Both the position numbers and the translations under genes were made by a program. Shown here one piece after another: positions 25,217 to 46,775 of a stretch of 64,000 nucleotides of DNA. This DNA is from Albidovulum sediminis (GTDB taxonomy: Bacteria; Pseudomonadota; Alphaproteobacteria; Rhodobacterales; Rhodobacteraceae). How positions within the stretch are numbered: the stretch's first letter is position 1; each line of letters starts with the position of its first letter. The notes under the pieces were generated by a model. It made no database searches, was not told the DNA's origin, and was given only the letters and a program-made list of their open reading frames with translations. The stretch spans positions 434,001-498,000 of the forward strand of contig NZ_JAOCQF010000001.1 of the NCBI RefSeq assembly GCF_025380365.1, written 5' to 3'.

Positions 25217-25323
25217 CGCCGCCGTCCCGCCGGCCTCTGCGCCCCTTTATCGCCTATCCCTTTGGGGGAATATGGCCGCCGCCGCCGCTCTGCTATTCCG
25301 TCCCGGACACGAGGGAGGACAGA

Positions 25324-26205
25324 ATGCGCGAAGTGACCTTTGCCGCGACCCAGATGGCCTGCACATGGGACGCCGATGAAACCCTGGAACGGGCCGAGGC
25401 GCTGGTCCTCAGGGCCGCCGGGGCAGGGGCCCAGGTGATCCTGCTGCAGGAACTGTTCCAGACCCCCTACTTCTGCCTCGAGATCGACGCGCGCCACCTC
25501 GACCTGGCGAGGACTCTGGAAGAGGACCGCGCCGTCGGCCATTTCCGCGCGTTGGCGCGGCGGCTGGGCGTCGTCCTGCCGATCTCCTTCTTCGAACGTG
25601 CGGGGCTCGCGCACTACAACACGCTGGCCATGATCGACGCAGATGGCGAGATCCTCGGCACCTACCGCAAGACCCATATCCCGCAGGCGGCGGGGTATGA
25701 GGAGAAGTATTACTTCACCCCCGGCGATACCGGCTTCAAGGTCTTCCAGACCCGCTTCGGCCGGATCGGCTGCGGCATCTGCTGGGACCAGTGGTTCCCC
25801 GAAACCGCGCGCGCGCTGGCGCTGATGGGGGCCGAGGCGCTCTTGTTCCCCACCGCCATCGGGTCGGAGCCGCAATATCCCGACCTCGACAGCGCGGGCC
25901 ACTGGCAGCGCGCGATGCAGGGCCACGCGGCGGCCAACATCCTGCCGGTCGTCGCCTCGAACCGGATCGGCGTGGAACGCGACGGCCGGACCGAGATGAC
26001 TTTCTACGGCTCCTCCTTCATCGCCGACCATACCGGCGCGATGGTGGCCGAGGCGGGGCGCGAGGAGGAGGCGGTGCTGACCGCGCGCTTCGACCTGGAC
26101 GAAATCGCGCGCTACCGCCGTGCCTGGGGCGTCTTCCGCGACCGCCGGCCCGACATGTACGGCGCGCTTCAGACCATGGACGGGGTCAACCGCGTGATCG
26201 GCTGA
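25324..26205 (+). CDS. carbon-nitrogen hydrolase, N-carbamoylputrescine amidase-like
   Basis: A 293-aa nitrilase-superfamily enzyme with the Glu-Lys-Cys triad: Glu in LLQELFQTPYFC, Lys in TYRKTHIPQAAGYEEKYYF, Cys in CGICWDQWFPE. These and GDTGFKVFQTRFG are close to plant and Pseudomonas N-carbamoylputrescine amidase (AguB), which converts N-carbamoylputrescine to putrescine. No agmatine deiminase is nearby. In a thiamin or pyrimidine uptake locus an amidase acting on a formylated or carbamoylated pyrimidine is an alternative. It is 107 bp after the permease; a small promoter could lie there. Confidence 0.85.
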   Translation: MREVTFAATQMACTWDADETLERAEALVLRAAGAGAQVILLQELFQTPYFCLEIDARHLDLARTLEEDRAVGHFRALARRLGVVLPISFFERAGLAHYNTLAMIDADGEILGTYRKTHIPQAAGYEEKYYFTPGDTGFKVFQTRFGRIGCGICWDQWFPETARALALMGAEALLFPTAIGSEPQYPDLDSAGHWQRAMQGHAAANILPVVASNRIGVERDGRTEMTFYGSSFIADHTGAMVAEAGREEEAVLTARFDLDEIARYRRAWGVFRDRRPDMYGALQTMDGVNRVIG

Positions 26206-26214
26206 CCCGCGCGG

Positions 26215-27363
26215 TCAGTCGCGCGCCAGCACCGGCGCGGGCCGGTAGCGGCCGGCCAGATGCGCGGGCGCGCGCGCCTCAAGCTCGGCAAGCGTGGAGC
26301 GGATCGCGGGCGCACCGTGGCGGGCCAGCGCCTCGAACGGCCCGTGCGGGAAGTTCAGGCCCAGCCGCATCGCGGTGTCGATCCCCTCGGCCGTCACCCC
26401 GCCCTCGGCCAGTAGCCAGCCCGCCTCGTTGATCAGCGCCGCCTCGATCCGGCGCACGATCGCCGCCGCATCCCCGGGCGCATCCCCGGGCGCATCCTCG
26501 GGTGCGGGACCGGGGGCGGCGGGAAAGACGAATCCGCGCCCGGCCTTGCGCCCGAGCGCGCCCGAGGCGACCTGCGCCCTGAGGGCTGCAAAGACGTGAT
26601 AGCGCGGATGCCCGCCCATCGCCGCCGAAAGCCCCTCGGTCGCGGCCAGGTTCACGTCCGCGCCGACAAGGTCGATGAGCGAGAAGGGCCCCAGCCGGTA
26701 GCCCGCCGCGACCATCGCCGCGTCGACCGCGGCCGCCGTCCGGCCCTCCTCCAGCAGCGCCAGCGCCTCGCCGTAGAAGGGGCGCGCGCAGCGGTTGACG
26801 ATGAAGCCGGGGCGGTCGGGGCAGGCGATTACGGTCTTGCCCGCGGCCTCCGCCAGCGCCCGTCCGAGCGCCAGCGCCGAGGGATCGCTGCCCGCGTGAC
26901 CGGCAAGCTCGACCAGCTTCATCGCCGGGGCGGGGTTGAAGAAGTGGAGCGCGATCAGCCGGCCCGGCCGTGCCAGCCCTTCGGCCACGCCCGCGAGGGG
27001 CAGGGACGAGGTGTTGGTGGCCAGAACCGCGTCCGCCGCCAGCCCCGGCTCGATCCGCGCGAACAGCGCGCGCTTGGCCGCCATGTCCTCGACGATTGCC
27101 TCTATCGCCAGCGTCGATCCGGCCAGATCCTCGGGCACCGCCACGATCCGCAGCCGCGCGAGTGTCGCGTCGCGCGCCTCGGGCGAAAGCTTGCCTGCCG
27201 CCACCCGCGCGTCGAGTGCGGCGGCCATTCGGGCCGGGGCGCTGTCGCGCGCCGGGGCGTGGGCGTCGGTCGCCGCGACCGGAAAGCCCGCCGCCGCGAA
27301 GACCTGCGCGATGCCCAGGCCCATCGTGCCCAGCCCCGCGACTGCGATCTGCGCTGTCTCCAT
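26215..27363 (-). CDS. 3-hydroxyacyl-CoA dehydrogenase
   Basis: A 382-aa NAD-dependent dehydrogenase of the single-domain FadB C-terminal type. The NAD loop is IAVAGLGTMGLGIAQVFAAAG; the catalytic part shows ATNTSSLPLAG, LHFFNPAPAMKLVE (catalytic His and Asn region) and DRPGFIVNRCARPFYGEAL. It oxidises a 3-hydroxyacyl-CoA to 3-ketoacyl-CoA. It is divergent from the 2-aminobenzoyl-CoA operon across a 127-bp space with tandem palindromes, which suggests that both are regulated together and that this enzyme acts late in that pathway. A 12-bp direct repeat (positions about 26467-26503) codes for the odd APGDAPGDA stretch. Confidence 0.9.
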   Translation of the reverse strand: METAQIAVAGLGTMGLGIAQVFAAAGFPVAATDAHAPARDSAPARMAAALDARVAAGKLSPEARDATLARLRIVAVPEDLAGSTLAIEAIVEDMAAKRALFARIEPGLAADAVLATNTSSLPLAGVAEGLARPGRLIALHFFNPAPAMKLVELAGHAGSDPSALALGRALAEAAGKTVIACPDRPGFIVNRCARPFYGEALALLEEGRTAAAVDAAMVAAGYRLGPFSLIDLVGADVNLAATEGLSAAMGGHPRYHVFAALRAQVASGALGRKAGRGFVFPAAPGPAPEDAPGDAPGDAAAIVRRIEAALINEAGWLLAEGGVTAEGIDTAMRLGLNFPHGPFEALARHGAPAIRSTLAELEARAPAHLAGRYRPAPVLARD

Positions 27364-27410
27364 CGCCCGTCCCCTGCCGACCTGCCGCCCATGATGGCCT
27401 GCGGGACAGA

Positions 27411-27442
27411 AATTTCAAGCTGGAAATTTCAAGCTTGAAATT
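27411..27442. promoter_or_regulatory. two overlapping 18-bp palindromic operators
   Basis: AATTTCAAGCTTGAAATT at 27425-27442 is a perfect palindrome. AATTTCAAGCTGGAAATT at 27411-27428 is the same site with a single change and overlaps it by four bases. The pair sits between the divergent starts of the 3-hydroxyacyl-CoA dehydrogenase (27363) and the monooxygenase (27491). The symmetry and length fit a winged-helix MarR dimer, and a MarR gene lies third in the operon. Confidence 0.8.
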
Positions 27443-27490
27443 ATTTCCGACCGGTGCCAGTCTGATGGCAGGGCATGAGGGAGGCGGCGG

Positions 27491-29773
27491 ATGAAGGTTC
27501 TGTGTCTCGGGGGCGGGCCGGCGGGCCTTTACTTCGCGATCTCGATGAAGCTGCGCGACCCCGCCCATCAGGTCACCGTTCTGGAACGCAACCGCGCCAA
27601 TGATACCTTCGGCTGGGGCGTGGTCCTGTCCGACGACGCGCTGTCGCGGATGCAGAAGAACGACCCGAAATCGACCGACGCGATCCGCAGCCATTTCGCC
27701 TACTGGGACGACATCGCGGTTGTCCACGACGGCCACCGCACCGTGTCGGGCGGCCACGGCTTTGCCGGGATCGGGCGCCGGCAGATGCTGATCCTGCTCC
27801 AGGACCGCGCACGCGAACTGGGCGTCGACCTGCGCTTCGAGACCGAGTTCGAAAGCGCGGAGACCTACCGCAAGGATTACGACCTTGTCGTCGCCTCCGA
27901 CGGCATCAATTCCCGCGTCCGCAAGGAATACGAAGGCACCTTCCGCCCCGACATCGATGTGCGCCGCTGCAAGTTCGTCTGGCTCGGCACCCACCAGAAA
28001 TTCGACGACGCCTTCACCTTCATCTTCGAAAAGACCGAACACGGCTGGGTCTGGGCGCATGTCTACCAGTTCGACGCCACCACCGCGACCTTCATCGTCG
28101 AATGCCTGCCCGAGACCTGGGACCGCTGGGGGTTCGAGCGGATGTCGAAGGAGGAAACGGTCGAGACCTGCCGCAGGATCTTCGCGCGTCACCTGGGCGG
28201 GCATGACCTGATGTCGAACGCCGCCCACCTGCGCGGCTCGGCCGTCTGGATGCAGTTTCCGCGCGTCATCTGCGAACGCTGGTACACCGGCAATGTCGTC
28301 CTGATGGGGGACGCGGCGGCGACCGGGCATTTCTCCATCGGCTCGGGCTCTCGCCTCGCCTTCGACAGCGCCATCGCGCTGGCAGACTACCTGCACAGCG
28401 AACCCACCCTGGAGGCCGCCTTCGAACGCTACCAGGAGGAGCGGCGGACCGAGGTGCTGCGCCTCCAGTCGGCCGCGCGCAACAGCCTCGAATGGTTCGA
28501 GGAGGTGGAGCGCTATCTGGACCTGCCGCCTGCCCAGTTCGCCTATTCGCTCCTGACCCGCAGCCAGCGGATCAGCCATGAGAACCTGCGCCTGCGCGAC
28601 CCCGAATGGCTGCGCGGCGCCGAGGACTGGTTTCAGGAACAGGCCGGCGGCACGCCCGGACGCGCGCCGATGTTCGCACCCTTCCGGCTGCGCGACATGG
28701 CGCTCAAGAACCGCGTCGTCGTCTCGCCCATGGCGCAGTACAAGGCCGTGGACGGCTGCCCGACCGACTGGCACTTCGTCCACTACGCCGAACGCGCCAA
28801 GGGGGGCGCGGGGCTCGTCTATGTCGAGATGACCTGTGTCAGCCCCGAGGGGCGGATCACGCCGGGCTGCCCCGGCCTTTACGCGCCCGAACATGAGGCC
28901 GCCTGGACCCGGCTTGTCGATTTCGTGTACCGGGAGACGACGGCGAAGATCTGCTGCCAGATCGGTCACGCGGGCCGCAAGGCCTCCGTTCAGGTCCCGT
29001 GGGCGGATGACGAGATGCCGCTGGCGGAGGGGTGGGAGGTCATCGGCCCCTCGGCCCTGCCGTGGTCGCCCGCCCACCCGGTGCCGCGGGAAATGACGCA
29101 GGCAGACCTGGACCGTGTGCGCGACGAATTCGTGCGGGCAACCGAAATGGCCGCGCGGGCGGGCTTCGACATGATCGAACTGCATGCCGCGCACGGCTAC
29201 CTGATCTCCAGCTTCATCAGCCCGCTGTCGAACCGGCGCACCGACGCCTACGGCGGCAGCCTGGAAAACCGCATGCGCTGGCCCCTGGAGGTGCTGGGCG
29301 CCATGCGCCGCACCTGGGGTGAGGCAAGGCCCCTGTCGGTCAGGATTTCCGCCAACGACTGGGTGGGCGATGAAGGCGTGACCCCGGCCGAGGCGGTGCA
29401 GATCGCGCGGATGTTCGCCGCGGCGGGGGCCGACATCATCGACGTCAGCGCCGGCCAGACCTCGCCCAAGGCAAGGCCGGTCTACGGGCGCATGTTCCAG
29501 ACCCCGTTCTCCGACCGCATCCGCAACGAGGCGGGGCTGGCGACGATGGCGGTGGGCAACATCACCGAGGTCGATCACGTGAACTCCATCCTGCTCGCCG
29601 GCCGGGCCGACCTCGTCTGCCTGGCCCGCCCGCATCTGGCGGACCCCTACTGGATGCTGCACGCGGCGGTGGAGATGGGGGATACGGCCGAGGCCTGGCC
29701 GGTGCCCTATCACCGCGGCCGTGACCAGGCGCGGCGGCTGAGGGAAAAGACGGTGGAGGCGATCCGGGCATGA
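27491..29773 (+). CDS. abmA: 2-aminobenzoyl-CoA monooxygenase/reductase
   Basis: A 760-aa fused flavoenzyme. Residues 1-380 form an FAD monooxygenase of the salicylate-hydroxylase type (dinucleotide loop [16 protein letters not shown]; second FAD motif [15 protein letters not shown]). Residues about 395-740 form an old-yellow-enzyme (NADH:flavin oxidoreductase) domain with the active-site His in [13 protein letters not shown] and the [15 protein letters not shown] signature. This two-part layout is that of 2-aminobenzoyl-CoA monooxygenase/reductase, which hydroxylates and then reduces the ring of anthraniloyl-CoA. Annotation as salicylyl-CoA 5-hydroxylase is the main alternative, but the aminobenzoate-CoA ligase in the operon favours aminobenzoate. 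GAGGGAGGCGG precedes the ATG. Confidence 0.9.
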
Positions 29774-30510
29774 CGCTGGCGGGAAAGCGCGTTCTCATCA
29801 CCGGCGGCGGCGCCGGCGCGGGGGCGGACCTGGCACTCGGTTTCGCCCGTGCGGGCGCCGAGGTCGTGATCACCGGGCGGCGGGCCGATGCGCTGAAGGC
29901 CACGGCGGCGCTCTACGAGGGGATGCGCTGGGTGCAGGGCGACGTCACCGACGAAGCCTCGGTGCGGGCGATGTTCGCCGAGGCCGGGCCCTGCCAGATC
30001 GTGATCGCCAACGCCGGCGCGGCCGACAGCGGGGTGATGGCGAAGACGACGCTCGACCAGTGGAACGCGATGATCGCGGTCAACCTGACCGGCGCGTTCC
30101 TGACGCTCCGCGAGGGGCTGCGCCAGATCGACGGCTGGGGGCGCCTGATCGCCATTGCCTCCACTGCGGGGCTGAAAGGTTACGCGAAGGTCGCGCCCTA
30201 TGCCGCTGCGAAACATGGCGTTATCGGGATTGTCCGCTCGCTCGCGCTGGAAATCGCGCGCACGCCGGTCACGGTGAACGCGATCTGCCCCGGATTCCTC
30301 GACACGCCGATGACCGACCACTCGGTCGCGGTCATCGCGGCGAAGACCGGCCGCAGCCCTGCCGAGGCGCGCGCGGCGCTTGAGGCGATGAGCCCGCAGA
30401 ACCGGCTGATCCGCCCGGCGGAGGTTACCGCCTGCGCGCTCTGGCTTTGTGCGGCGGGGTCGGAGGGGGTGAACGGCCAGGCCATCCCGATCAACGGGGG
30501 CGAGGCATGA
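29770..30510 (+). CDS. SDR family oxidoreductase
   Basis: Short-chain dehydrogenase of 246 aa. The cofactor loop is [17 protein letters not shown]; the structural motif is IANAGAAD; the catalytic residues are Ser in IAIASTAGL and Tyr-Lys in PYAAAKHGV. It begins in the stop of the monooxygenase gene (ATGA). In this pathway it could reduce or oxidise the cyclic keto-acyl-CoA product made by the monooxygenase/reductase. The lack of an Asp after the glycine-rich loop at the end of the second strand (VITGRRAD) suggests NADP(H). Confidence 0.88.
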
Positions 30511-30938
30511 GCGATCTGTCGAAGCGCCGTCTGAAGCTCTGGATCCGGCTGCTGGGGGTGACCCGGTCGGCGGAAAACCGGCTCAGGGAATTCCTGCGCG
30601 TGACCCATGCCACGACGCTGCCGCGCTTCGACGTGATGGCGGCACTCTACCGCCGGCGCGAGGGGGTGACGATGAGCGAGCTTTCCCGCATGCTCCTCGT
30701 CTCGAACGGCAATGCCACCGCCGTGGTGGACCGGCTCGAGGCCGAAGGCCTGGTCCGGCGCACGCCCTCGGCCGCCGACCGGCGCACCGTCTTCGTCGCC
30801 CTGACCGAGCCGGGGCTGGCCGCCTTCGAAACGCTCGCCGCCGATCACGAGCGCGAGGTGGACGCGATCCTTTCCGCGCTTTCGGAGGAGGACCTGGACC
30901 GCATGACGGAAATCCTGAAACGGATGGGAAAACAATGA
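30507..30938 (+). CDS. MarR family transcriptional regulator
   Basis: A 143-aa winged-helix protein. The recognition helix lies in [28 protein letters not shown] and the wing in [20 protein letters not shown], as in MarR-type repressors of aromatic-acid operons (for example BadR or HcaR type). It starts in the stop of the SDR gene and its own stop overlaps the next start (ATGA), so it is embedded in the catabolic operon. I infer that it represses from the tandem palindromes at 27411-27442 and is relieved by a CoA thioester such as 2-aminobenzoyl-CoA. Confidence 0.9.
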
Positions 30939-31747
30939 CCTTGATGGCGTCCCTCAAGCCCGTTCACTTCCTGTGGGAGGTCATCGACCGCGTTGCGGTG
31001 ATCCGGCTTGCCCGGCCCGAGCGGAAGAACCCGCTGACCTTCGAAAGCTACGCCGAACTGCGCGACACCTTCCGCGCGCTGCCCTATGCCGAGGATGTGG
31101 ACGTGGTGGTGCTGGCCCCGAACGGCGGCAACTTCTGTTCGGGCGGGGACGTGCACGACATCATCGGGCCGCTCGTCGGCATGGACATGAAGGGCCTTCT
31201 GGCCTTCACCCGGATGACCGGGGATCTGGTCAAGGCGATGCTGCACTGCACCAAGCCGGTGATCGCGGCCGTCGACGGGGTGGCGGTGGGGGCGGGCGCG
31301 ATCCTGGCCATGGCCGCCGACCTTCGGATCGCCACGCCCGAGGCGAAATGCGCCTTTCTCTTCACCCGCGTGGGCCTTGCAGGCTGCGACATGGGCGCCT
31401 GCGCCATGCTGCCCCGGATCGTCGGTCAGGGGCGGGCGGCGGAACTGCTCTACACCGGGCGGACGATGAGCGCCGAGGAGGGCGCGGCCTGGGGCTTCTG
31501 GAACGCGCTCCACCCGGCGGAGCGTCTGGAGGCGGAGGCGATGGCGCTGGCGGCGCGGCTCGCGGCCGGCCCGACCTTTGCCCACGGCATCACCAAGACG
31601 CAACTGAACCAGGAGTGGACCATGGGGCTTGACCAGGCGATCGAGGCCGAGGCGCAGGCGCAGGCGATCTGCATGCAGACCCGCGATTTCGAACGCGCCT
31701 ACCGCGCCTTCGTGGCGAAGGAGAAACCGGTCTTCGAGGGAAACTGA
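30935..31747 (+). CDS. enoyl-CoA hydratase family protein
   Basis: Crotonase-fold enzyme of 270 aa. The oxyanion-hole segment is [13 protein letters not shown]; the second active-site part reads [20 protein letters not shown], a variant in which a Glu is replaced by Asp, often seen in alphaproteobacterial aromatic-degradation hydratases. It would hydrate an unsaturated acyl-CoA or open the ring hydrolytically after the monooxygenase/reductase step. It starts in the stop of marR and is followed by a hairpin repeat before the acyl-CoA dehydrogenase. Confidence 0.9.
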
Positions 31748-31755
31748 GGGCAAGG

Positions 31756-31793
31756 CAGGGGGCGCTGCCCCCCTGACCCCCCGGGATATTTGG
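31756..31793. repeat. hairpin plus TATTTGGG repeat, copy 2 (short form)
   Basis: CAGGGGG (31756-31762) pairs with CCCCCTG (31769-31775), then CCCCCCGGG and ATATTTGGG follow, ending at 31793. The order (G/C hairpin, C-run, TATTTGGG) is the same as in the copy at 7889-7940, but without the CCAGACTGAAA extension. It lies in the 60-bp space between two genes of the catabolic operon and may lower read-through. Confidence 0.6.
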
Positions 31794-31807
31794 GAAAAGA
31801 AGAAGGG

Positions 31808-32941
31808 ATGAGCGACAGGAGCTTTCTGGATTGGCCGTTCTTCGACGATCGCCACCGCGATCTGGCGGCGTCGCTCGAGGCGTGGTGCGACCGTCACCTG
31901 CCGGTCGATCACGGCGATGCGGATGCGGCCTGCCGGGGGCTGGTGGCGGCGCTGGGCGCGGGCGGCTGGCTGGCCCATACCGGCGCGGGGGCGGGCGAGC
32001 GGCTGGATATCCGCACGCTCTGCCTGATCCGCGAGACGCTGGCGCGCCACGACGGGCTGGCGGATTTCGCCTTCGCCATGCAGGGGCTGGGGATGGGGGC
32101 GGTCAGCCTGTTCGGAACCGAAGCGCAGCGCGGCTGGCTGGCGCGGACGCGCGCCGGGACGGCGATCGCGGGCTTCGCGCTGACCGAGCCGGGCGCGGGG
32201 TCGGACGTGGCGCAGACCGCGACCACGGCGCGGCGCGAGGGCACGGACTGGGTGCTGGAGGGGGAGAAGACCTATATCTCCAACGGCGGGATCGCGGATC
32301 TTTACGTGGTCATCGCGCGAACCGGCGAGGGGGAGGGCGCGAAGGGTCTGTCCGCGTTCCTGATGCCGGCGGAGGCGCCGGGGCTGAGCGTGGCGGAGCG
32401 GATCGAGGTGATGGCGCCGCATCCGCTGGCGCGGCTGAGGCTGGATTGCGTGCGGCTGGGCGAGGGCGCGCGGATCGGCGCGGCGGGGCAGGGCTTCAAG
32501 GTGGCGATGACGGTACTCGATCATTTCCGGCCCACGGTCGGGGCGGCGGCGCTGGGCTTTGCCCGCCGCGCGCTGGACGAGGCGCTGGCGCGGGTGGCGC
32601 GGGTGCGGCCGGGGGGCGGGCGGCTTGCCGACCACCAGATCGTGCAGGGGCACCTGGCCGACATGGCGCTGAAGATCGACGCGGCGGCCCTGCTGGTTTA
32701 CCGCGCGGCCTGGGCCAAGGACGGAGGCGCAGCGCGGATCAGCCGCGAGGCGGCGATGGCGAAGCTTTACGCCACCGAGGCGGCGCAGGAGGTGATCGAC
32801 ATGGCAGTGCAGCTGCATGGCGGCGACGGGGTGCGCACGGGCGTCGCGGTCGAGGGCCTTTACCGCGAGATCCGGGCGCTGCGAATCTACGAGGGCGCCT
32901 CGGACGTGCAGCGGATGGTCATCGCGCGGGGGCTGGCATGA
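31808..32941 (+). CDS. acyl-CoA dehydrogenase family protein
   Basis: Flavoprotein of 377 aa with the three-part ACAD layout: helical N-terminal part, middle beta part with [16 protein letters not shown] and [11 protein letters not shown] (FAD contacts), C-terminal helical part with [13 protein letters not shown] and [18 protein letters not shown], where the Glu of YEG is the expected catalytic base. It would desaturate an acyl-CoA intermediate and pass electrons to ETF. The start is uncertain: the ATG at 31808 has its purine-rich site only one base away, and a TTG six codons earlier is possible. Confidence 0.9.
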
Positions 32942-33357
32942 GCTATTCCCGCGTCATTCCGGTCGAGTTCAACCATTGCGACCCGGCGGGCATCGTCTTT
33001 TTCCCGCGCTACTTCGAGATGGTGAACTCCGTTGTGGAGACCTTCTTCGCCGAGGTGCTGGGCCGACCCTTCGCGGCGGTCGTGGCGGCCGGGCACGGGG
33101 TGCCGACGGTGCGGCTGGAAAGCGATTTCCGCGCGCCCTCGCGCCTGGGCGACCGGCTGCGGTTCACGCTGCGGGTGGAGCGGGCGGGGACCACGTCGCT
33201 GGCCCTGGCCCACGAGGCACGGGCGGGGGAGGAACTCAGGATCGCGGTGAGGCAGACGATCGTCTGGACCGAGGGCGGGCGGGCATGTCCCTGGCCCGTA
33301 GAGATCCGGGCGCGGATCGAGGCATTTCAGGAGGATGGCGATGCACAGCCCGCATGA
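32938..33357 (+). CDS. acyl-CoA thioesterase family protein (4HBT type)
   Basis: Hot-dog-fold thioesterase of 139 aa, the usual length for 4-hydroxybenzoyl-CoA thioesterase-like proteins. The active-site stretch [18 protein letters not shown] contains the conserved Asp and the xxGxxxxxxY pattern. In CoA-dependent aromatic pathways such enzymes recycle CoA from dead-end thioesters. It begins in the stop of the dehydrogenase gene (ATGA) and overlaps the RidA gene by 17 bases, so expression of the three is coupled. Confidence 0.88.
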
Positions 33358-33748
33358 ATTCCTGCACCCGGCGGGGTGGAAGCCGGCGGTCGGCTATTCC
33401 CACGGCATGGCGGCCACGGGCCGGATGGTCCTGACCGGCGGTGTCATCGGCTGGAACGCCGATCAGGTCTTCGAGACCGACGACTTCGTGGGTCAGGTGC
33501 GGCAGGCGCTGATCTCGATCGTGGAGATCCTCGCCGCCGGGGGGGCGCGGCCGGAGCATCTGGTGCGGCTGACTTGGTATGTCACCGACAAGCGGGAATA
33601 CCTGAACAATCTCAAGGCGCTGGGCGCCGTCTACAAGGAAGTGGTCGGGCGCCACTATCCGGCGATGGCGCTGGTGCAGGTGGTGGCGCTGGTCGAGGAC
33701 CGGGCCAGGGTGGAAATCGAGGCGACGGCGGTCATTCCGCAGGGCTGA
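33341..33748 (+). CDS. RidA family protein
   Basis: A 135-aa protein of the YjgF/YER057c/UK114 (Rid) family. The core segments MVLTGGVIGWNADQVFETDDF and LTWYVTDKREYLNN are typical, but the Arg that in true RidA binds 2-aminoacrylate (in CRVQVYL-type segments with IPARSCV) is not obvious, so it belongs to an Rid subfamily (Rid4-7 type). Rid proteins hydrolyse enamines and imines; in an aminobenzoate pathway this could release ammonia from the amino-enone product. AGGAGG lies six bases before the ATG at 33341, which settles the start over the ATG at 33335. Confidence 0.85.
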   Translation: MHSPHEFLHPAGWKPAVGYSHGMAATGRMVLTGGVIGWNADQVFETDDFVGQVRQALISIVEILAAGGARPEHLVRLTWYVTDKREYLNNLKALGAVYKEVVGRHYPAMALVQVVALVEDRARVEIEATAVIPQG

Positions 33749-33773
33749 GGCGCGAAGGGTGGGAGGACCCGAC

Positions 33774-35396
33774 ATGCTGGGACCGACAGGACACGAAGAT
33801 ACGTTCACGCGGGACAACCTGCCGCCGGAGGACGCGTGGCCGGAGATCCGGCTGGCGGGGTTCGACTATCCCGACTGGCTGAACGCGGGGGTGGAGCTGT
33901 CCGACCGGATGGTCGAGAAGGGCTTTGGCGATCATACCGCGCTGATCGGGAACGGGCGCATCCGGACCTACAAGGAACTGGCCGACTGGTCCAACCGGAT
34001 CGCCCATGCGCTGGTCGAGGATTACGGCGTAAGGCCGGGAAATCGTATCCTGATCCGGTCCGCGAACAACCCGGCGATGGTGGCCTGCTGGCTGGCCGCG
34101 ACCAAGGCGGGGGCGGTCGTCGTCAACACCATGCCGATGCTGCGGGCGGGCGAGCTTTCCAAGATCGTCGACAAGGCGGAGATTGCGCTCGCGCTTTGCG
34201 ACACGCGGCTGATGGAGGAGATGGTGGCCTGCGCGAAGGGCTCGCGCTTCCTGGCGAAGGTCGTGGGTTTCGACGGAACCGCGAACCACGACGCGGAGCT
34301 GGACCGGATCGCTCTGGGCAAGCCGGTGCGGTTCCAGGCGGCGCGGACCGGGCGCGACGACGTGGCGCTTCTGGGCTTCACCAGCGGCACCACGGGGGAA
34401 CCTAAGGCCACGATGCACTTCCACCGCGATCTCCTGATCATCGCCGACGGCTATGCGCGCGAGGTGCTGAAGGTCACGCCCGAGGACGTCTTTGTCGGCT
34501 CTCCGCCCCTGGCCTTCACCTTCGGGCTGGGCGGGCTGGCGGTCTTTCCACTGCGGTTCGGGGCGGCCGCGGCACTTCTGGAGCAGGCGACGCCGCCCAA
34601 CCTGATCTCCATCATCCAGGAACACAAGGCGACGGTTTGTTTCACTGCGCCAACGGCTTACCGGGTGATGTTGAAGGCGATGGAGGAGGGGGCGGACCTT
34701 ACTTCCCTGCGCGCGGCGGTCAGCGCGGGCGAAACCCTGCCGGCGCCGGTCTACGAGGAGTGGATGGCCAGGACCGGCAAGCCGATGCTGGACGGGATCG
34801 GCGCGACCGAGATGCTGCACATCTTCCTGACCAACCGCTTCGACGACCACCGCCCGGCCTGCACCGGCCGGCCGGTGACGGGCTACGAGGCGCGCGTGGT
34901 CGATGCGGAGGGGCGCGAATGCCCGCGCGGCACGCCGGGGCGGCTTGCGGTCAGGGGGCCGACGGGGTGCCGCTACCTCGCCGACGAGCGGCAGCGGGCC
35001 TATGTGCAGAACGGCTGGAACATCACCGGCGACACCTTCGTGCAGACCGAGGACGGCTATTTCCACTTTGCCGCGCGCAACGACGACATGATCATCTCGT
35101 CGGGCTACAACATCGCCGGGCCGGAGGTGGAGGCCGCGCTCCTCTCGCACCCGGACGTGTTCGAATGCGCCGTCATCGGCGCCCCGGACCCGGACCGTGG
35201 CCAGATCGTCGAGGCGCATGTGGTTCTGGCGGAAGGCAAGGCCGGAGATGCCTTGATGGTCAAGGTCTTGCAAGATCATGTGAAGGCAGTGATCGCGCCC
35301 TACAAGTACCCGCGCCGGATCGTCTTCGAGACTGCGCTGCCGAAGACCCAGACCGGCAAGATCCAGCGGTTCCGCCTGCGTGCACCTGAGGGGTGA
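33774..35396 (+). CDS. abmG: 2-aminobenzoate-CoA ligase
   Basis: Adenylate-forming acyl-CoA ligase of 540 aa. The ATP loop is FTSGTTGEPKATMH; A5-like GIGATEMLHIFLTN and A8-like GRLAVRGPTGCRYLADE follow; the C-terminal catalytic Lys is in PKTQTGKIQRF. The sequence near the N terminus (DTFTRDNLPPEDAWPEI) and the overall type fit benzoate/2-aminobenzoate-CoA ligases. It activates anthranilate for the monooxygenase/reductase encoded five genes upstream. GGGAGGA precedes the ATG at 33774. Benzoate or another substituted benzoate remains possible as substrate. Confidence 0.88.
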   Translation: MLGPTGHEDTFTRDNLPPEDAWPEIRLAGFDYPDWLNAGVELSDRMVEKGFGDHTALIGNGRIRTYKELADWSNRIAHALVEDYGVRPGNRILIRSANNPAMVACWLAATKAGAVVVNTMPMLRAGELSKIVDKAEIALALCDTRLMEEMVACAKGSRFLAKVVGFDGTANHDAELDRIALGKPVRFQAARTGRDDVALLGFTSGTTGEPKATMHFHRDLLIIADGYAREVLKVTPEDVFVGSPPLAFTFGLGGLAVFPLRFGAAAALLEQATPPNLISIIQEHKATVCFTAPTAYRVMLKAMEEGADLTSLRAAVSAGETLPAPVYEEWMARTGKPMLDGIGATEMLHIFLTNRFDDHRPACTGRPVTGYEARVVDAEGRECPRGTPGRLAVRGPTGCRYLADERQRAYVQNGWNITGDTFVQTEDGYFHFAARNDDMIISSGYNIAGPEVEAALLSHPDVFECAVIGAPDPDRGQIVEAHVVLAEGKAGDALMVKVLQDHVKAVIAPYKYPRRIVFETALPKTQTGKIQRFRLRAPEG

Positions 35397-35484
35397 CGCC
35401 GGGGCAGGACGGGGAGATTCCGGCTTGCGCGCGGTTGCAAAGCCATCAGACTGACGACCATCAAACAACAGGGAGAGAGTTGAG

Positions 35485-36627
35485 ATGAAAGCGAGAACCA
35501 TCCTTCTTGGAACGCTTGCCGCGCTGGCGCTCGGCGCGGGGGCGGCGGGTGCCGAGGGCATCAAGGTGGGCATGATCACCACGCTGTCGGGCGGCGGCGC
35601 GGGCCTTGGCATCGACGTGCGCGACGGCTTCCTGCTGGCGCTGAAGATGGCCGGCGCGACCGATGTCGAGGCCGTGATCGAGGATGACCAGCAGAAGCCC
35701 GACATCGCGGTTCAGATCGCCGACAAGATGATCCAGTCCGATCAGGTCGACGTGCTGACCGGCATCATCTGGTCGAACCTCGCCATGGCGGTGGTCCCGG
35801 CGGCGGTGGCGCAGGGCAAGTTCTACCTGTCGCCCAACGCCGGCCCCTCGGCGCTGGCGGGTTCGGGCTGCGACAAGAACTACTTCAACGTCGCCTGGCA
35901 GAACGATAACCTGCACGAGGCGGCCGGGGCCTATGCGAATTCGGCCGGTTACAATAACAGCTTCATGCTGGCGCCGAACTATCCCGCGGGGACGGACGCG
36001 ATCACCGGCTACAAGCGCTTCTACACCGGCGCGGCGGCGGGTGAGGTCTATACCCAGCTTGGTCAGACCGACTACGCAGCCGAGATCGCGCAGATCCGGG
36101 CCAGTGGCGCGGACAGCGTGTTCTTCTTCCTGCCGGGCGGCATGGGCATCGCCTTCATGAAGCAGTACGCGGAATCGGGCGTGGGCATCCCGCTGGTCGG
36201 GCCTGCCTTCTCGTTCGACCAGAACATCCTTCAGGCGGTGGGCGACGCGGCCCTTGGCGTGCGCAACACCTCGCAGTGGAACAAGGATCTGGACAACGCG
36301 GCCAACGCGGCCTTCGTGGCGGCCTTCCAGGCCGAATACAACCGCCTGCCGTCGCTTTACGCCAGCCAGGGCTATGACACCGCGAACCTGCTTCTGTCGG
36401 CCAAGGCCAAGGCGGACGTGGCCGATCAGGACGCCTTCCGTGCGGCGCTGGAGGCGGCCGACTTCGCCTCGACCCGCGGCGACTTCAAGTTCGGGCCGAA
36501 CCACCACCCGATCCAGGACATCTACGTCCGCGAGGTGGTGAAGGAGGGCGACATCTACACCAACAAGCTTGTGGGCGTGGCGCTGGAAGACCGCGGCGAC
36601 GCCTATGTGGACGAGTGCAAGATGTAA
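35485..36627 (+). CDS. ABC transporter substrate-binding protein, branched-chain/aromatic type
   Basis: A 380-aa periplasmic protein of the LivJ/Leu-Ile-Val-binding family. A Sec signal peptide covers residues 1-23 (ends GAAGAEG). The mature part begins IKVGMITTLSGGGAGLGIDVRDGFLLA and continues with VLTGIIWSNLAMAVVP and APNYPAGTDAITGYKR, as in the subset that binds benzoate-like aromatics rather than leucine. It is likely to capture 2-aminobenzoate. GGGAGAGAG precedes the ATG. An 88-bp space separates it from the ligase gene and it is followed by a strong hairpin before the permease genes. Confidence 0.9.
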   Translation: MKARTILLGTLAALALGAGAAGAEGIKVGMITTLSGGGAGLGIDVRDGFLLALKMAGATDVEAVIEDDQQKPDIAVQIADKMIQSDQVDVLTGIIWSNLAMAVVPAAVAQGKFYLSPNAGPSALAGSGCDKNYFNVAWQNDNLHEAAGAYANSAGYNNSFMLAPNYPAGTDAITGYKRFYTGAAAGEVYTQLGQTDYAAEIAQIRASGADSVFFFLPGGMGIAFMKQYAESGVGIPLVGPAFSFDQNILQAVGDAALGVRNTSQWNKDLDNAANAAFVAAFQAEYNRLPSLYASQGYDTANLLLSAKAKADVADQDAFRAALEAADFASTRGDFKFGPNHHPIQDIYVREVVKEGDIYTNKLVGVALEDRGDAYVDECKM

Positions 36628-36634
36628 GCGCAAG

Positions 36635-36662
36635 GGGGGCCGGGGCACGACCCCGGCCCTTT
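36635..36662 (+). terminator. hairpin between binding-protein and permease genes
   Basis: A perfect 9-bp stem GGGCCGGGG/CCCCGGCCC (36637-36645 with 36651-36659, loop CACGA) ends in TTT, and two G-T pairs extend its base. It follows the stop of the binding protein by 7 bases. Such hairpins after a periplasmic binding-protein gene usually attenuate read-through or protect the upstream message, so that binding protein is made in excess over permease. Confidence 0.7.
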
Positions 36663-36682
36663 CCAGGGGGAATGATCCGGTG

Positions 36683-37594
36683 ATGCTTCTGGCGGAGCAG
36701 GCGCTGAACGGCCTGCAATACGGGATGATGCTGTTTCTAATGGCCGCCGGGCTGACGCTCGTCTTCGGGGTCATGGGGCTGATCAACCTGGCGCATGGCT
36801 CGCTCTACATGCTGGGCGCCTTCGCCTGCGCCTGGGTGGCGGCGGCGACGGGGTCTTTTGCGCTGGGGCTGGCGGCGAGCCTTGCGGCCGCCGCCGCCGC
36901 GGGCGTGCTGGTCGAGGTGGCGGTGATCCGGCGGCTTTATGCGCGCGACCATCTGGAGCAGGTGCTGGCCACCTTCGCGCTGATCCTGGTCTTTTCGGAA
37001 GGCACGCGCTGGGTTTTCGGGTCGTTCCCGCTTTACCTCACGCTGCCGGCGGCGCTTTCCGGGGCGGTCACGCTGCCTGGCGGGCTGCAATACCCGCTGT
37101 TCCGGCTGGCGATCATCGGCGTCGGCGCGGCGGTGGCGGTGGGGCTGTGGTTGCTGATCGCGCGCACGCGGCTTGGCATCCGCATTCGCGCGGGCGAGGC
37201 GGACAGGGAGATGGTGGCGGCTCTCGGCGTCGACATCGCGCGGCTTTACACGCTGGTCTTCGCGCTCGGTGCCGCGCTTGCGGGGCTGGCCGGGGCGCTG
37301 GTGGGCACGATCCAATCGGTGCAGGTGGGGATGGGGGAGCCGGTGCTGATCCTGGCCTTCGTCGTCATCGTCATCGGCGGCATCGGGTCGATCAAGGGGG
37401 CGCTGGTCGCGGCGCTGCTGGTCGGGCTGACCGATGCGCTGGGAAAGGCGCTTCTGCCGGCGCTGTTCGCGCGCTTCATGGAGGTGTCGGCGGCGAACGG
37501 GATCGGCGCGGCGCTTGGCTCCATGCTCATCTACATCCTGATGGCGGGGGTGCTGATCTGGCGCCCGCAGGGGCTTTACGGGGCGCGGGGCTAG
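36683..37594 (+). CDS. branched-chain amino acid-type ABC permease (LivH family)
   Basis: A 303-aa inner-membrane protein. The N-terminal ALNGLQYGMMLFLMAAGLTLVFGVMGLINLAHGSLYMLGAF is the LivH signature; the coupling loop is RAGEADREMVAALGVDIARLY, and IGGIGSIKGALVAALLVG lies near the end. It pairs with the LivM-type permease encoded directly downstream with one base between. A GTG one codon before the ATG is an equal start candidate. Confidence 0.9.
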   Translation: MLLAEQALNGLQYGMMLFLMAAGLTLVFGVMGLINLAHGSLYMLGAFACAWVAAATGSFALGLAASLAAAAAAGVLVEVAVIRRLYARDHLEQVLATFALILVFSEGTRWVFGSFPLYLTLPAALSGAVTLPGGLQYPLFRLAIIGVGAAVAVGLWLLIARTRLGIRIRAGEADREMVAALGVDIARLYTLVFALGAALAGLAGALVGTIQSVQVGMGEPVLILAFVVIVIGGIGSIKGALVAALLVGLTDALGKALLPALFARFMEVSAANGIGAALGSMLIYILMAGVLIWRPQGLYGARG

Positions 37595-37595
37595 G

Positions 37596-38576
37596 ATGAG
37601 ACGGGTTGCCATCCTCAATGCCACCGTCTTCGCCGCGCTGGTCGCGGTGGCGCTGGTCGCCCATCTCGCGGGCGCGCCCTATGTGGTGACGCTGGCCACC
37701 AAGGCCGCGATCTTCGCGCTGGCGGGCGTGGGTCTGAACCTCGCGCTCGGCTACGGGGGGATGGTGTCCTTCGGGCACGCGGTCTTCTTCGGGATAGGCG
37801 GCTATGTCACCGGCATCTTCGCAAGCCACGCGGCCGCGGGCACGCCGGTCCTGACCTTTCCGTTCACCGTCGCGGGCAGTGCCGAAATGCTGGGCCTCTG
37901 GCCCATGGCGATGGTGGTCACCGCGCTGGCCGCGCTGGTGATCGGGGCGCTGAGCCTGCGCACGAGCGGCGTCTACTTCATCATGGTCACCCTCGCCTTC
38001 GCGCAGATGGTCTATTACTTCGCGATCAGTTGGCGCGCCTATGGCGGGGAGGACGGGCTGTCCTTCTACGTCCGCAACAGCTTTCCGGGGCTGAACACCT
38101 TTGCCCCGCTCCAGTTCTTCGCCATCGCGGCCGGGCTGCTGGCGCTGGCGATGGGCTTTTCGGCGCTGGTCACGCGGTCGCGCTTCGGGCTGGCGCTGCA
38201 GGCGGCGCGGGCGAACCGGCAGCGGGTCATGGCCTCGGGCATCCGGCCCTTCGCGCTGCAACTGACGGCCTTTGTCCTCTCGGCGGTGATCGTCGGGCTG
38301 GCGGGGTCGCTTTACGCCGACCTCAACCGCTTCGTCAGCCCGGCGATGCTGTCCTGGCATATGTCGGGGGAGATCATGGTGTTCGTCATTCTCGGCGGCG
38401 TCGGGCGGCTGGCGGGGCCGGTCGCCGGGGCGGGGGTCTTCATTCTGCTGGAGCAGGTGCTGGGCGGGGTGTCGGAATACTGGCAGGCGTTGCTGGGGCT
38501 TCTGCTGCTGGCGATCGTGCTTTATGCGCCGGGCGGCATCCTGGGCCTGTTGCCCGGGGGGCGGCGCCATGTCTGA
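37596..38576 (+). CDS. branched-chain amino acid-type ABC permease (LivM family)
   Basis: A 326-aa membrane protein. The family pattern is ALAGVGLNLALGYGGMVSFGHAVFFGIGGYV near the N terminus, then LRTSGVYFIMVTLAFAQM and the coupling segment ALQAARANRQRVMASGIRPF. With the LivH-type permease it forms the membrane channel of the aromatic-acid importer. It overlaps the next ATPase gene by eight bases. Confidence 0.9.
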   Translation: MRRVAILNATVFAALVAVALVAHLAGAPYVVTLATKAAIFALAGVGLNLALGYGGMVSFGHAVFFGIGGYVTGIFASHAAAGTPVLTFPFTVAGSAEMLGLWPMAMVVTALAALVIGALSLRTSGVYFIMVTLAFAQMVYYFAISWRAYGGEDGLSFYVRNSFPGLNTFAPLQFFAIAAGLLALAMGFSALVTRSRFGLALQAARANRQRVMASGIRPFALQLTAFVLSAVIVGLAGSLYADLNRFVSPAMLSWHMSGEIMVFVILGGVGRLAGPVAGAGVFILLEQVLGGVSEYWQALLGLLLLAIVLYAPGGILGLLPGGRRHV

Positions 38577-39318
38577 CGTGATCCTCAACATCCGCGGGCT
38601 GGAGAAAAGCTTTGGCGCGCTCAAGGCCACCGACGGGGTGACGCTTGACCTGCGCCGGGGGGAGATCCACGCGCTGATCGGGCCGAACGGGGCGGGGAAA
38701 TCGACGCTGATCAAGCAGATCACCGGAGAGCTGCGGCAGGACCGCGGCACCATCACCTTCGAGGGGCAGGCGATCGACACGCTCGACGCCGCGGCGCGGG
38801 CGCGGTTGGGGCTGGCGCGCAGTTTCCAGGTCTCATCGGTGGTGCCGGAGTTCACGGCGCTTGAAAACACCATGCTGGCCGTTCTGGGCGCGGGGGGCGG
38901 GGTGTTCCGCTTCCTCAGACCCGCGCTGCAGGATCGGGCGCTGACCGATCCGGCGCGGTTCCACCTGGAGCAGGCGGGGCTGGCCGGGCGGGAAGGCGTG
39001 CCCGCAAGCACGCTGTCGCATGGCGAACGGCGGCGGCTGGAGATCGCGATGGCGCTGGCGATGCGGCCGCGCGCCTTCCTGCTCGACGAGCCGATGGCGG
39101 GGATGGGGGCGGAAGGCGCGCGCGACCTGACCGCGATCCTGTCGGACCTTCGGGCCGAGGCGCCGATCCTGCTGGTCGAGCACGACATGGACGCGGTCTT
39201 TGCGCTGGCTGACCGCATCTCGGTCCTGGTCTACGGGCGCATCATCGCCACCGGCCCGGTCGCCGAGATCCGCGCCAACCCCGAGGTGCGCCGGTCCTAC
39301 CTGGGGGAGGAGGCATGA
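38569..39318 (+). CDS. ABC transporter ATP-binding protein (LivG family)
   Basis: A 249-aa ATPase. Walker A is GPNGAGKST, Walker B with neighbours is AFLLDEPMAGMG, and the signature reads LSHGERRRLEIAMAL. The longer insert after Walker A and the MAGMG ending after Walker B place it in the LivG rather than LivF group. Translation is coupled to the LivM and LivF genes by short overlaps on both sides. Confidence 0.92.
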   Translation: MSDVILNIRGLEKSFGALKATDGVTLDLRRGEIHALIGPNGAGKSTLIKQITGELRQDRGTITFEGQAIDTLDAAARARLGLARSFQVSSVVPEFTALENTMLAVLGAGGGVFRFLRPALQDRALTDPARFHLEQAGLAGREGVPASTLSHGERRRLEIAMALAMRPRAFLLDEPMAGMGAEGARDLTAILSDLRAEAPILLVEHDMDAVFALADRISVLVYGRIIATGPVAEIRANPEVRRSYLGEEA

Positions 39319-40004
39319 GCGCGCTGCTGGAGCTTTCGGGGGTGACGGCGGGTTATGGCGCGGTGCAGGCGCTTTACGGTGTCGGCCTGACGGTGGGCGA
39401 GGGGGAGGCTGTCGCGCTGATGGGGCGCAACGGCATGGGCAAGACGACGACGGTGCGCACCATCGCGCGGATGCTGCCGGCGACGGGCGGGCGCGTCGCC
39501 TTCGCGGGCACGGACCTTGCCCGGCTGCCGTCCTACCGGGCGGCGCGGCTGGGGATCGGCCTTGTGCCTGAGGGGCGGCGGACCTTCGGGCCGCTGACGG
39601 TGTCCGAAAACCTGGCCGTCGCCGCGCGCCCCGGCCCCTGGGACGTGGCGCGGGTGACGCGGCTGTTCCCGCGCCTGGGCGAGCGGATGGGGCAGACGGC
39701 GCGGACGCTGTCGGGGGGCGAGCAGCAGATGCTGGCGATCGCGCGGGCGCTGATGACCAATCCGCGGCTTCTGATCCTCGACGAGGCGACCGAGGGGCTG
39801 GCACCCTCGGTCCGGCAGGAGATCTGGGCGGCGATCCGCGCGCTGAAGGGCGAGGGCCTTGCCATCCTCCTGATCGACAAGTCGGTGCGCGAGATCGCGG
39901 GCGTGGCCGACCGCGCCGTGATCCTCGAACGCGGGGCAACCGCCTGGGCCGGGGTGATCGGCGCGCTCAGCGCCGATGTCGCCGACCGCTATCTGGGGGT
40001 CTGA
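39315..40004 (+). CDS. ABC transporter ATP-binding protein (LivF family)
   Basis: A 229-aa ATPase, the usual short LivF form. Walker A reads GRNGMGKTT, the signature LSGGEQQMLAIARAL and Walker B LLILDEATEGLAPS. It closes the importer operon; its start overlaps the stop of the LivG-type gene (ATGA). The MATE gene converges from the right after 20 bases. Confidence 0.92.
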   Translation: MSALLELSGVTAGYGAVQALYGVGLTVGEGEAVALMGRNGMGKTTTVRTIARMLPATGGRVAFAGTDLARLPSYRAARLGIGLVPEGRRTFGPLTVSENLAVAARPGPWDVARVTRLFPRLGERMGQTARTLSGGEQQMLAIARALMTNPRLLILDEATEGLAPSVRQEIWAAIRALKGEGLAILLIDKSVREIAGVADRAVILERGATAWAGVIGALSADVADRYLGV

Positions 40005-41407: not shown

Positions 41408-41860
41408 TCAGGCAGAGGGCAACCCCTGACAGGCTTTCTCGAAAAGTTCCTCGAACCGGGCCAGTTCCTCGTCGCTGAGAGCAGCGGCTAGGGTGGCGGC
41501 GGCGCGCGCGTGAATGGCGTTTTCCTCGCCTTCCAGTGCCGTGGTCCTGGGCGTGGGCCGGATCAGGCTTGCACGCTTGTCCTCGGGGTCGGGGGTCCGT
41601 TCGAGATATCCCCGCGCCTCGAGCTTGGAGGCCATGGCACTGGCGGAGGCCTTGCTGACCCCCATGCGCTCGGCCAGATCGGTCAGGCGCAACCCCTCGG
41701 GGTGCCAAGCGACGACATCGAGATAGTCGTACTCGGTGGAAGTCAGCTCCATGCTGCCGCTTTTCTGCGACTCCTGTCGCCAGAGACGCCACAGGTGCCA
41801 CTGAAGGCGCCTGATGCTGTCTTGCAGCTGCGTGGTTGCATCCGTTTGTTTGTTAGTCAT
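41408..41860 (-). CDS. MarR family transcriptional regulator
   Basis: A 150-aa winged-helix repressor. The DNA-reading helix is in LRLTDLAERMGVSKASASAMASKLEARGYL and the wing in ERTPDPEDKRASLIRPTP. It precedes the MATE gene in a two-gene operon, a common pattern for drug-inducible efflux. A perfect 16-bp palindrome covers its own start codon and is an obvious autoregulatory operator. Confidence 0.92.
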   Translation of the reverse strand: MTNKQTDATTQLQDSIRRLQWHLWRLWRQESQKSGSMELTSTEYDYLDVVAWHPEGLRLTDLAERMGVSKASASAMASKLEARGYLERTPDPEDKRASLIRPTPRTTALEGEENAIHARAAATLAAALSDEELARFEELFEKACQGLPSA

Positions 41861-41867
41861 GACTAAC
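41852..41867. promoter_or_regulatory. perfect 16-bp palindrome over the marR start
   Basis: GTTAGTCATGACTAAC is fully self-complementary and its centre is the CAT/ATG of the marR start codon (ATG begins at 41860 on the minus strand). The surrounding sequence is AT-rich compared with the neighbourhood. A bound MarR dimer here would block initiation of its own operon. Confidence 0.85.
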
Positions 41868-41999
41868 TTGTTTTCCCGCCCATGTCAAGCACCCTGTTTG
41901 CCGGTCCCGAGACGACGCAGGATCGGCGCGGCCTCGCGAATGACTCTTCCGGCCATAGTTAACGCAGCCTATGAAGAGGGCAAGCAAAGGAGGACGCCG

Positions 42000-43545: not shown

Positions 43546-43562
43546 GGTGACGTAAAGTCACC
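43546..43562. promoter_or_regulatory. inverted repeat upstream of the XRE-cupin gene
   Basis: GGTGAC and GTCACC flank GTAAA, giving a 6-5-6 inverted repeat across the stop codon of the amidohydrolase gene. On the minus strand it contains GTGACTTTA, the same nonamer as at 44600-44608. It is a candidate site for the XRE-cupin regulator. Confidence 0.6.
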
Positions 43563-44620: not shown

Positions 44621-44665
44621 CATCTGCTAATGATCGGAGCAAGCGAATCCGAAGGGGAGGGGACC

Positions 44666-46385: not shown

Positions 46386-46664
46386 TCAGCTGGTCGGTTG
46401 AAGCTGGGCGTCCGCGATCAGGGTCTCGTGCACGAAGCCTGCGGATCGGGCCGCCGCGATGAAGGCGCGCCGGGCAGTGCCAACCGAGCAGATGCAGTCC
46501 ATGGCGTCCTGGATCCTGCTGAGCGCGGTCTGCCGCGCGTCGTCGGCGATCGGCCACCGGTTGCGTAGCCAATAGCGCACCTGTTCGACGGTGCTGAAGC
46601 TTTGCAGGGTGCCGTCGGACGACACCACGAAGTTGAGGGGGTGCCCCCAGTTGATTTCTATCAT
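46386..46664 (-). CDS. DUF982 domain-containing protein
   Basis: A 92-aa protein with the DUF982 pattern: WGHPLNFVVSSDGTLQSFSTVEQVRYWLRNRWP followed by an alpha-helical part and ARRAFIAAARSAGFV. DUF982 proteins are small and frequent in Rhizobiales and Rhodobacterales, often in several copies, and their function is unknown. The start at 46664 (MIEINWGHP) is normal for the family. The site before it is weak (AAGAAAC). Confidence 0.8.
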   Translation of the reverse strand: MIEINWGHPLNFVVSSDGTLQSFSTVEQVRYWLRNRWPIADDARQTALSRIQDAMDCICSVGTARRAFIAAARSAGFVHETLIADAQLQPTS

Positions 46665-46775
46665 GTCCAGTTTCTTACATATAATTCTTCCAGCGAGCGT
46701 ATGGGACGGCGCCGGAAAAGAGGTGGGGAAGGCGACCAAATCGCCCCCTTCCCGAGTGCCACGTGAAGTATGCCC

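Follow-up and report, generated by a model that had tools for sequence, protein, structure and literature searches.

A probable anthranilate operon in the window

Which compound is degraded by the enzymes encoded at positions 26,215–40,004 of the window, the 64,000-nucleotide stretch of the Albidovulum sediminis genome analysed here, and which of these enzymes could take part in deamination and ring opening? Profile scans of the window's reading frames resolved this locus into a divergent 3-hydroxyacyl-CoA dehydrogenase (HAD) gene and thirteen same-strand genes (27,491–40,004). Its gene content and genomic context indicate that it is very probably an anthranilate (2-aminobenzoate) catabolic operon of the abm type, operating via coenzyme A (CoA) thioesters under the control of its own MarR regulator. 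The first of the thirteen genes (27,491–29,773, + strand) encodes a predicted 2-aminobenzoyl-CoA monooxygenase/reductase (ACMR) of 760 amino acids, in which a FAD monooxygenase domain (PF01494, FAD_binding_3, residues 2–320) and an old-yellow-enzyme domain (PF00724, Oxidored_FMN, residues 394–725) are fused in one frame. This protein matches the NCBIfam model NF006101 with 1252.9 bits, above the cut-off of 1078.

The assignment to anthranilate, already made in the original prediction, was supported by several lines of context: kynA and kynU genes linked to ACMR in relatives, the nearest solved ligase, the kyn genes of the host and the lack of a gentisate dioxygenase match. The aryl-CoA ligase of the operon (33,774–35,396, + strand), a predicted anthranilate-CoA ligase, has as its nearest solved sequence 4wv3, an anthranilate-CoA ligase, and benzoate-CoA ligases come next. 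To describe gene linkage, 140 ACMR loci were annotated with proteins of the window and reference proteins as tblastn queries, presence being called at identity thresholds chosen here. Counts refer to the 120 loci whose flanks reached 7.5 kb or more downstream and 2.5 kb or more upstream; the 20 short-flank loci were left out. Eighty of the loci are the nearest matches listed, so that counts over the 120 are weighted to relatives of the window, and the shared ancestry of these loci means that the counts are not independent. Eight loci (L097–L102, L150 and L151) had been chosen for kyn or gentisate genes near ACMR, and seven of them lie within the 120. Loci in which the crotonase and/or the acyl-CoA dehydrogenase of the operon was found, hereafter beta-type loci, account for 106 of the 120.

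kynA and/or kynU were present in 35 of the 120 loci, all 35 of the beta type and none among the other 14, six of the 35 having been chosen for that linkage. When the seven preselected loci were omitted, the linkage was retained in 29 of 113 loci (29/99 beta-type, 0/14 others), always less than 7 kb from ACMR. By source, these comprise 17 of 63 nearest loci, 4 of 24 from a phylum sample, 3 of 11 plasmid records and 5 of 14 other loci of the window's family, with 0 of 1 for the window itself. The kyn genes lie within the operon in Thalassospira marina, kynA adjoins the ligase gene in Aminobacter, and kynA is divergent from ACMR in Ruegeria pomeroyi DSS-3. In a further comparison, the first 40 family genomes of at least 95% completeness with the fusion above cut-off were set against the first 40 with no full-length fusion, a set that leaves out the divergent G055 and the truncated G069. 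Kynureninase is encoded less than 8 kb from ACMR in 7 of the 40 ACMR-holding genomes, compared with about 0.15 expected by a rough estimate. Moreover, in a quick tree of 72 ACMRs with 18 open forks, the window sequence falls in a 23-row clade (Shimodaira–Hasegawa-like approximate likelihood ratio test, 100) composed of 14 beta-type rows and nine beta-type rows with kyn genes, four of these nine having been chosen for kyn linkage.

The host genome (4.29 Mb) itself encodes a kynureninase (293 bits, cut-off 246) adjoining a tryptophan 2,3-dioxygenase (420 bits, cut-off 391), and anthranilate, a compound formed from tryptophan and from indole, could arise there from tryptophan through kynurenine.

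A conserved palindrome upstream of ACMR

Between the HAD and ACMR genes, a motif search revealed an 18-bp palindrome (AATTTCAAGCTTGAAATT) that occurs twice, in overlapping copies, at 27,411–27,442. At up to two mismatches these copies are its only sites in the host genome, with none for the control, and the 14-bp core at up to one mismatch is likewise confined to these positions. The core, at up to two mismatches, was found upstream of ACMR in 96 of the 139 loci whose upstream region reaches 180 bp or more, against 2 of 2780 shuffles; the shuffles preserved base composition alone, and the loci are related, so that the 96 are not independent. This palindrome, a new observation here, is likely the operator of the MarR-family regulator encoded within the operon (30,507–30,938, + strand; PF12802/PF01047, scanned from a longer frame starting at 30,447), which is predicted to bind it. 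A MarR gene was present in all 106 beta-type loci.

Residue patterns in candidates for deamination and ring opening

The original prediction had regarded the gene order as a source of candidates for deamination and ring opening; this was partly borne out, the RidA and crotonase proteins emerging with specific residue changes. Residues were compared in alignments whose rows were kept by length (SDR, 116 of 124; RidA, 100 of 103; acyl-CoA dehydrogenase, 108 of 110; crotonase, 113 of 113). A classical enoyl-CoA hydratase uses two catalytic glutamates. In the crotonase-fold enzyme (30,935–31,747, + strand; NF006107, 477 bits, cut-off 330), the two positions at which a FadB-like control has these glutamates are occupied by Ile (112 copies) or Met (one copy) and by Phe (113), whereas an Asp is invariant in all 113; the window residues are I123, F143 and D152. 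As both hydratase glutamates are replaced in every copy, the protein should not be a classical enoyl-CoA hydratase. In the alignment, Asp152 stands opposite an Asp of 4fzw, a structure named 1,2-epoxyphenylacetyl-CoA isomerase. MenB appeared as weak matches among the solved sequences.

Classical RidA enamine/imine deaminases carry a conserved active-site arginine. The Rid-family protein of the operon (33,335–33,748, + strand; PF01042) has Met111 in its place, as do all 100 aligned sequences; of its solved relatives, 3vcz has Arg at this position and 5v4f does not. Both the Glu-less crotonase and the Arg-less RidA patterns are new observations here. The short-chain dehydrogenase/reductase (SDR; 29,770–30,510, + strand; PF00106/PF13561), whose gene overlaps that of ACMR by 4 bp, retains S131, Y144 and K148 in at least 97% of 116 aligned orthologues and R37 in all of them. 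A conserved Arg at the latter position is a sign of NADP(H) use, and its conservation therefore suggests that the SDR uses NADPH. The acyl-CoA dehydrogenase (31,808–32,941, + strand; PF00441/PF02770) keeps its C-terminal Glu, E362, in at least 97% of 108 sequences.

A hint about where some of these proteins act came from five of the 14 non-beta loci (L113, L135, L152, L153 and L154), in which SDR, RidA and thioesterase share the ACMR stretch with FAH, small-cupin and second hot-dog genes, and in which neither crotonase nor acyl-CoA dehydrogenase was found. This arrangement hints that SDR and RidA may act close to the ACMR product.

According to a 2015 review (PMC4539516), the first two steps of the pathway are known and the remainder is given as beta-oxidation. 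For the window, we infer all steps beyond ACMR and the order ligase, ACMR, RidA, crotonase, SDR, acyl-CoA dehydrogenase, HAD and thiolase. Anthranilate would be taken up by the Liv importer and, judging from the nearest relatives of the ligase, converted into 2-aminobenzoyl-CoA, which ACMR would oxygenate and reduce to 2-amino-5-oxocyclohex-1-ene-1-carbonyl-CoA, as known for the Azoarcus enzyme. The Arg-less Rid protein would then make the enamine/imine on CoA hydrolyse faster, giving 2,5-dioxocyclohexane-1-carbonyl-CoA. This cyclic beta-keto thioester could be opened hydrolytically by the crotonase, which lacks the Glu pair and keeps a single Asp, or isomerised by it just before opening, and the SDR would reduce the remaining ketone. 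The acyl-CoA dehydrogenase, then HAD, then a thiolase from elsewhere would complete beta-oxidation; the thioesterase may free CoA that is trapped in dead-end thioesters, and MarR would control the operon at the double palindrome. Deamination is placed before ring opening because a CoA ester of formula C7H8O4, possibly cyclohexanedione-carboxyl-CoA, fits deamination first; PMC3534580 reports it in anthranilate-grown Arthrobacter cells only.

Alternative substrates and alternative ring opening

Several observations weigh against anthranilate as the substrate. One is the curated NCBIfam name of NF006101, the model that the key enzyme matches above cut-off: "bifunctional salicylyl-CoA 5-hydroxylase/oxidoreductase". 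It implies a salicylate pathway, salicylate appearing in the original prediction only as a refuting result: the ligase would form salicylyl-CoA, the fusion gentisyl-CoA and the thioesterase gentisate, followed by ring cleavage. Indeed, the fusion family lies near gentisate-dioxygenase-like and FAH-family genes in 5 of the 120 loci. One of these, L097 (G135), had been chosen for that neighbourhood; it belongs to the 23-row clade of the window and carries the gentisate-dioxygenase-like gene right after the ligase gene. The other four, L108 (Cupriavidus taiwanensis), L114 (Caballeronia), L126 (G610) and L115 (Novosphingobium), encode fusions 54–56% identical to that of the window, and have the gentisate-type and FAH-family genes in place of the beta-oxidation set. 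At the thresholds used, their stretches yielded no SDR, crotonase, acyl-CoA dehydrogenase or ligase, and those of L108, L114 and L126 no RidA either; L115 has a 38% RidA match below threshold. These four rows occupy at least two other places in the ACMR tree. The gentisate-1,2-dioxygenase-like protein of L114 scored 330 bits against a cut-off of 442.

However, a search of the host genome with TIGR02272 (gentisate 1,2-dioxygenase) gave no match at E ≤ 0.001. At E < 1e-50 such a match is lacking from 25 of the 40 ACMR-holding genomes and present in the remaining 15, compared with 7 of the 40 without ACMR; matches above cut-off occur in 3 of the 80 genomes, in one of them (G135) less than 8 kb from ACMR. 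Furthermore, the window has both the crotonase and the acyl-CoA dehydrogenase that were not found in four of the five gentisate-type loci, and its RidA fits an amine intermediate, although, according to PMC6449761, RidA-like genes also appear in regulons for benzoate and catechol, compounds that contain no nitrogen. With a kynA or kynU gene less than 7 kb from ACMR in 29 of the 113 loci not chosen for their neighbours, all of the beta type, the context favours anthranilate despite the curated name. After gentisate dioxygenase had been tested in the host and in the 40 + 40 genomes, the salicylate pathway was kept as a rival only, and we consider it very improbable. For the 106 beta-type loci, salicylyl-CoA 5-hydroxylase is probably not the right name of the fusion. 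The fusion beside gentisate-type genes is a candidate for the unreported step from anthranilate (or salicylate) to gentisate.

Other points against anthranilate concern the ligase, the host and other genomes. The ligase falls under the TIGR02262 cut-off of its subfamily (353 bits, cut-off 375), and sequence cannot fix its specificity or that of the binding protein. The substrate might accordingly be another ortho-amino acid, such as a hydroxy- or methyl-anthranilate, with plain anthranilate as a side substrate only; with kynA/kynU, which lead to anthranilate, linked in relatives, this is very unlikely. The host kyn genes lie about 170 kb from the operon and, within the mismatches searched, have no copy of the palindrome. 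The presence of kynureninase is weakly tied to that of ACMR (38 of 40 genomes with it, 31 of 40 without) and was discarded as a marker, the gene being informative only as linkage. According to PMC8879955, Cupriavidus metallidurans CH34 failed to grow on anthranilate although abm and kyn genes are annotated in its genome. A route through anthranilate 1,2-dioxygenase was considered and rejected for the host, no clear enzyme appearing among the Ring_hydroxyl_A matches: the genome search gave two, both closest to glycine betaine monooxygenase and under its cut-off. One of these two proteins also weakly matches the anthranilate 1,2-dioxygenase model (82 bits, cut-off 672), and a VanA-type Rieske protein at 44,630, barely above the Ring_hydroxyl_A cut-off, was missed by the genome search.

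With anthranilate as the likelier substrate, the means of ring opening can be weighed. The nearest solved sequence to the crotonase is the uncharacterised 3g64, followed by others that include PaaG isomerases rather than known ring-opening hydrolases, and the PaaG structures include a D136N mutant with oxepin-CoA; the predicted model (pLDDT, a per-residue confidence score, of 81) has the crotonase fold and, by fold comparison, is compatible with both a hydrolase and an isomerase. The crotonase may thus quite possibly, though at somewhat less than even chances, be an isomerase that shifts an enamine/imine or a double bond, in which case a thiolase encoded elsewhere would open the ring by thiolysis. 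A PcaF-like thiolase was indeed found in 18 of the 106 beta-type stretches and lies directly within the operon of S. meliloti AK21; in the other 88 the single thiolase probe found none, whereas the crotonase is present in 105 of 106. The fuller proposal, that nitrogen removal and ring opening on CoA follow an undescribed course with ACMR as hub, the Rid protein carrying Met for the carboxylate-binding Arg and the crotonase, having lost its hydratase glutamates, opening 2,5-dioxocyclohexane-1-carbonyl-CoA, is put forward tentatively. In it, the Rid protein would have exchanged Arg for Met because its substrate is a thioester. If the proposal is true, the ACMR product would feed the beta-oxidation module or, in other bacteria, gentisate-type or small-cupin modules, and these would be the source of the "unreported enzyme" on the way from anthranilate to gentisate, a route whose functional gene, according to PMC6221969, has not been revealed.

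Distribution of the gene set

The original prediction had called a whole set with its own importer less known in a Rhodobacteraceae-like genome. Rarity of such a set in the family was not supported: of 394 genomes sampled from the window's own family, 136 have a fusion scoring above the NF006101 cut-off, and in Paracoccus denitrificans PD1222 the genes, importer included, are arranged in the same order; among genomes sampled from the phylum, 31 of 249 scored above the cut-off. A contig search for ACMR returned at least 80 loci, mostly from Rhodobacteraceae and with 77–89% identity among the matches listed, of which the nearest, Defluviimonas sp. WL0002, has the same gene order, importer included. 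The pathway is already known and is common among relatives. Of the 106 beta-type loci, 102 were found to have the SDR, 96 the ligase, 93 RidA and 69 the thioesterase, and this recurrence argues that the gene set is not a chance grouping. A HAD of the divergent type lies near ACMR in 32 of the 120 loci, and both this HAD and the importer are present in five, the window counted. Additionally, a divergent ACMR branch with mixed neighbours was observed in the same family (L103, L104, L143, L144 and L145, from G255, G055, G390, G139 and G282, respectively), with 45–47% identity and about 1000 bits, under the NF006101 cut-off.

A side context was observed in 17 of the 120 loci (L014, L113, L114, L152, L154 and others), where the ACMR stretch encodes an indolepyruvate-ferredoxin-oxidoreductase-like alpha subunit, below the TIGR03336 cut-off in the two loci scanned. 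A cyclase-family gene accompanies it in 8 of the 17, against 8 of 103 otherwise, and the ligase was not found in 8 of the 17, against 14 of 103. If the cyclase were an isatin hydrolase, isatinate might, speculatively, be converted directly to anthraniloyl-CoA, an idea of which no report turned up in our literature search.

Remaining genes of the locus and its surroundings

Every gene listed in the original prediction was recovered at its position by profile scans and frames. Its description of the pathway as complete-looking is overstated, because no thiolase was identified among the genes of the stretch, the rest of the genome not having been searched for one, and the ring-opening enzyme is unproven. 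The 382-residue HAD (26,215–27,363, − strand; PF02737/PF00725) has PRK08268/PaaH-like as its best NCBIfam match, under cut-off. The 139-residue 4HBT (hot-dog) thioesterase (32,938–33,357, + strand), buried within a longer frame, matches general Pfam 4HBT families (PF13279, 47 bits; PF03061, 39 bits) and no NCBIfam model at E ≤ 1e-20. The Liv-type importer comprises, all on the + strand, a periplasmic binding protein (35,485–36,627; PF13458, 252 bits; nearest solved sequence 4evq), LivH-type (36,683–37,594, from a longer frame at 36,569) and LivM-type (37,596–38,576) permeases, and LivG-type (38,569–39,318, from a longer frame at 38,524) and LivF-type (39,315–40,004) ATPases, the last four identified by profile scan. 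With the start codons chosen here, overlaps occur at 7 of the 12 junctions among the thirteen same-strand genes.

Just before the operon, positions 22,807–26,205 carry genes for an ABC transporter of the taurine/nitrate type and, after them, an N-carbamoylputrescine amidase gene, whose frame (24,499–26,202) scores above the TIGR03381 cut-off. Downstream, the Rieske oxygenase gene (44,630–45,697) encodes a vanillate O-demethylase-type C-terminus, and nearby are genes for an amidohydrolase (43,558–44,583) and a TIM-barrel protein (41,814–42,845). Frames at 46,386–51,672, among them that of a family-2 glycosyltransferase (49,086–50,093), have a third-position GC of about 0.65–0.80, compared with about 0.84–0.92 in the operon, and this stretch is possibly acquired DNA.

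Comparison with known systems

The abm clusters of Azoarcus (Aromatoleum) evansii are reported to contain a ligase, ACMR, beta-oxidation-type enzymes, MarR, a RidA-like protein and an ABC binding protein. The window likewise has linked beta-oxidation-type genes, MarR, RidA and an ABC binding protein. Its locus also brings together an importer of five genes, a thioesterase and a divergently oriented HAD. Proteomics of tryptophan use in Phaeobacter inhibens is also said to point to the same route. The ligase, the fused ACMR and beta-oxidation are shared with the A. evansii system as it appears in PMC4539516. According to PMC3534580, two anthranilate-CoA ligases of Arthrobacter were assayed and make anthraniloyl-CoA, one ACMR of Arthrobacter sp. 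Rue61a shares 50% identity with that of Azoarcus, and PaaX-related regulators are mentioned for its plasmid genes, whereas the window has MarR. For Cupriavidus, PMC2842291 has abm genes annotated in C. necator JMP134, and PMC6221969 cites Qu 2017 for proteomic and genetic evidence of such a cluster, other parts of it pointing to Cupriavidus sp. SHE. Among the open-licence PMC papers searched, none contains both "aminobenzoyl-CoA" and "kynureninase".

The order of the window genes is that of plasmid 1 of Paracoccus denitrificans PD1222 (NC_008688.1), namely HAD (− strand), ACMR, SDR, MarR, crotonase, acyl-CoA dehydrogenase, thioesterase, RidA, ligase, binding protein, LivH, LivM, LivG and LivF. 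The two ACMRs are 82% identical, and the outer neighbours differ. To our knowledge, no experiment has addressed either cluster. In summary, the cluster is ordinary as such and its context for anthranilate is fairly strong, while the comparison narrows the later steps of the known pathway to particular proteins with specific residue changes, supplies a concrete candidate operator for the regulator, and leaves the candidates for deamination and ring opening testable.

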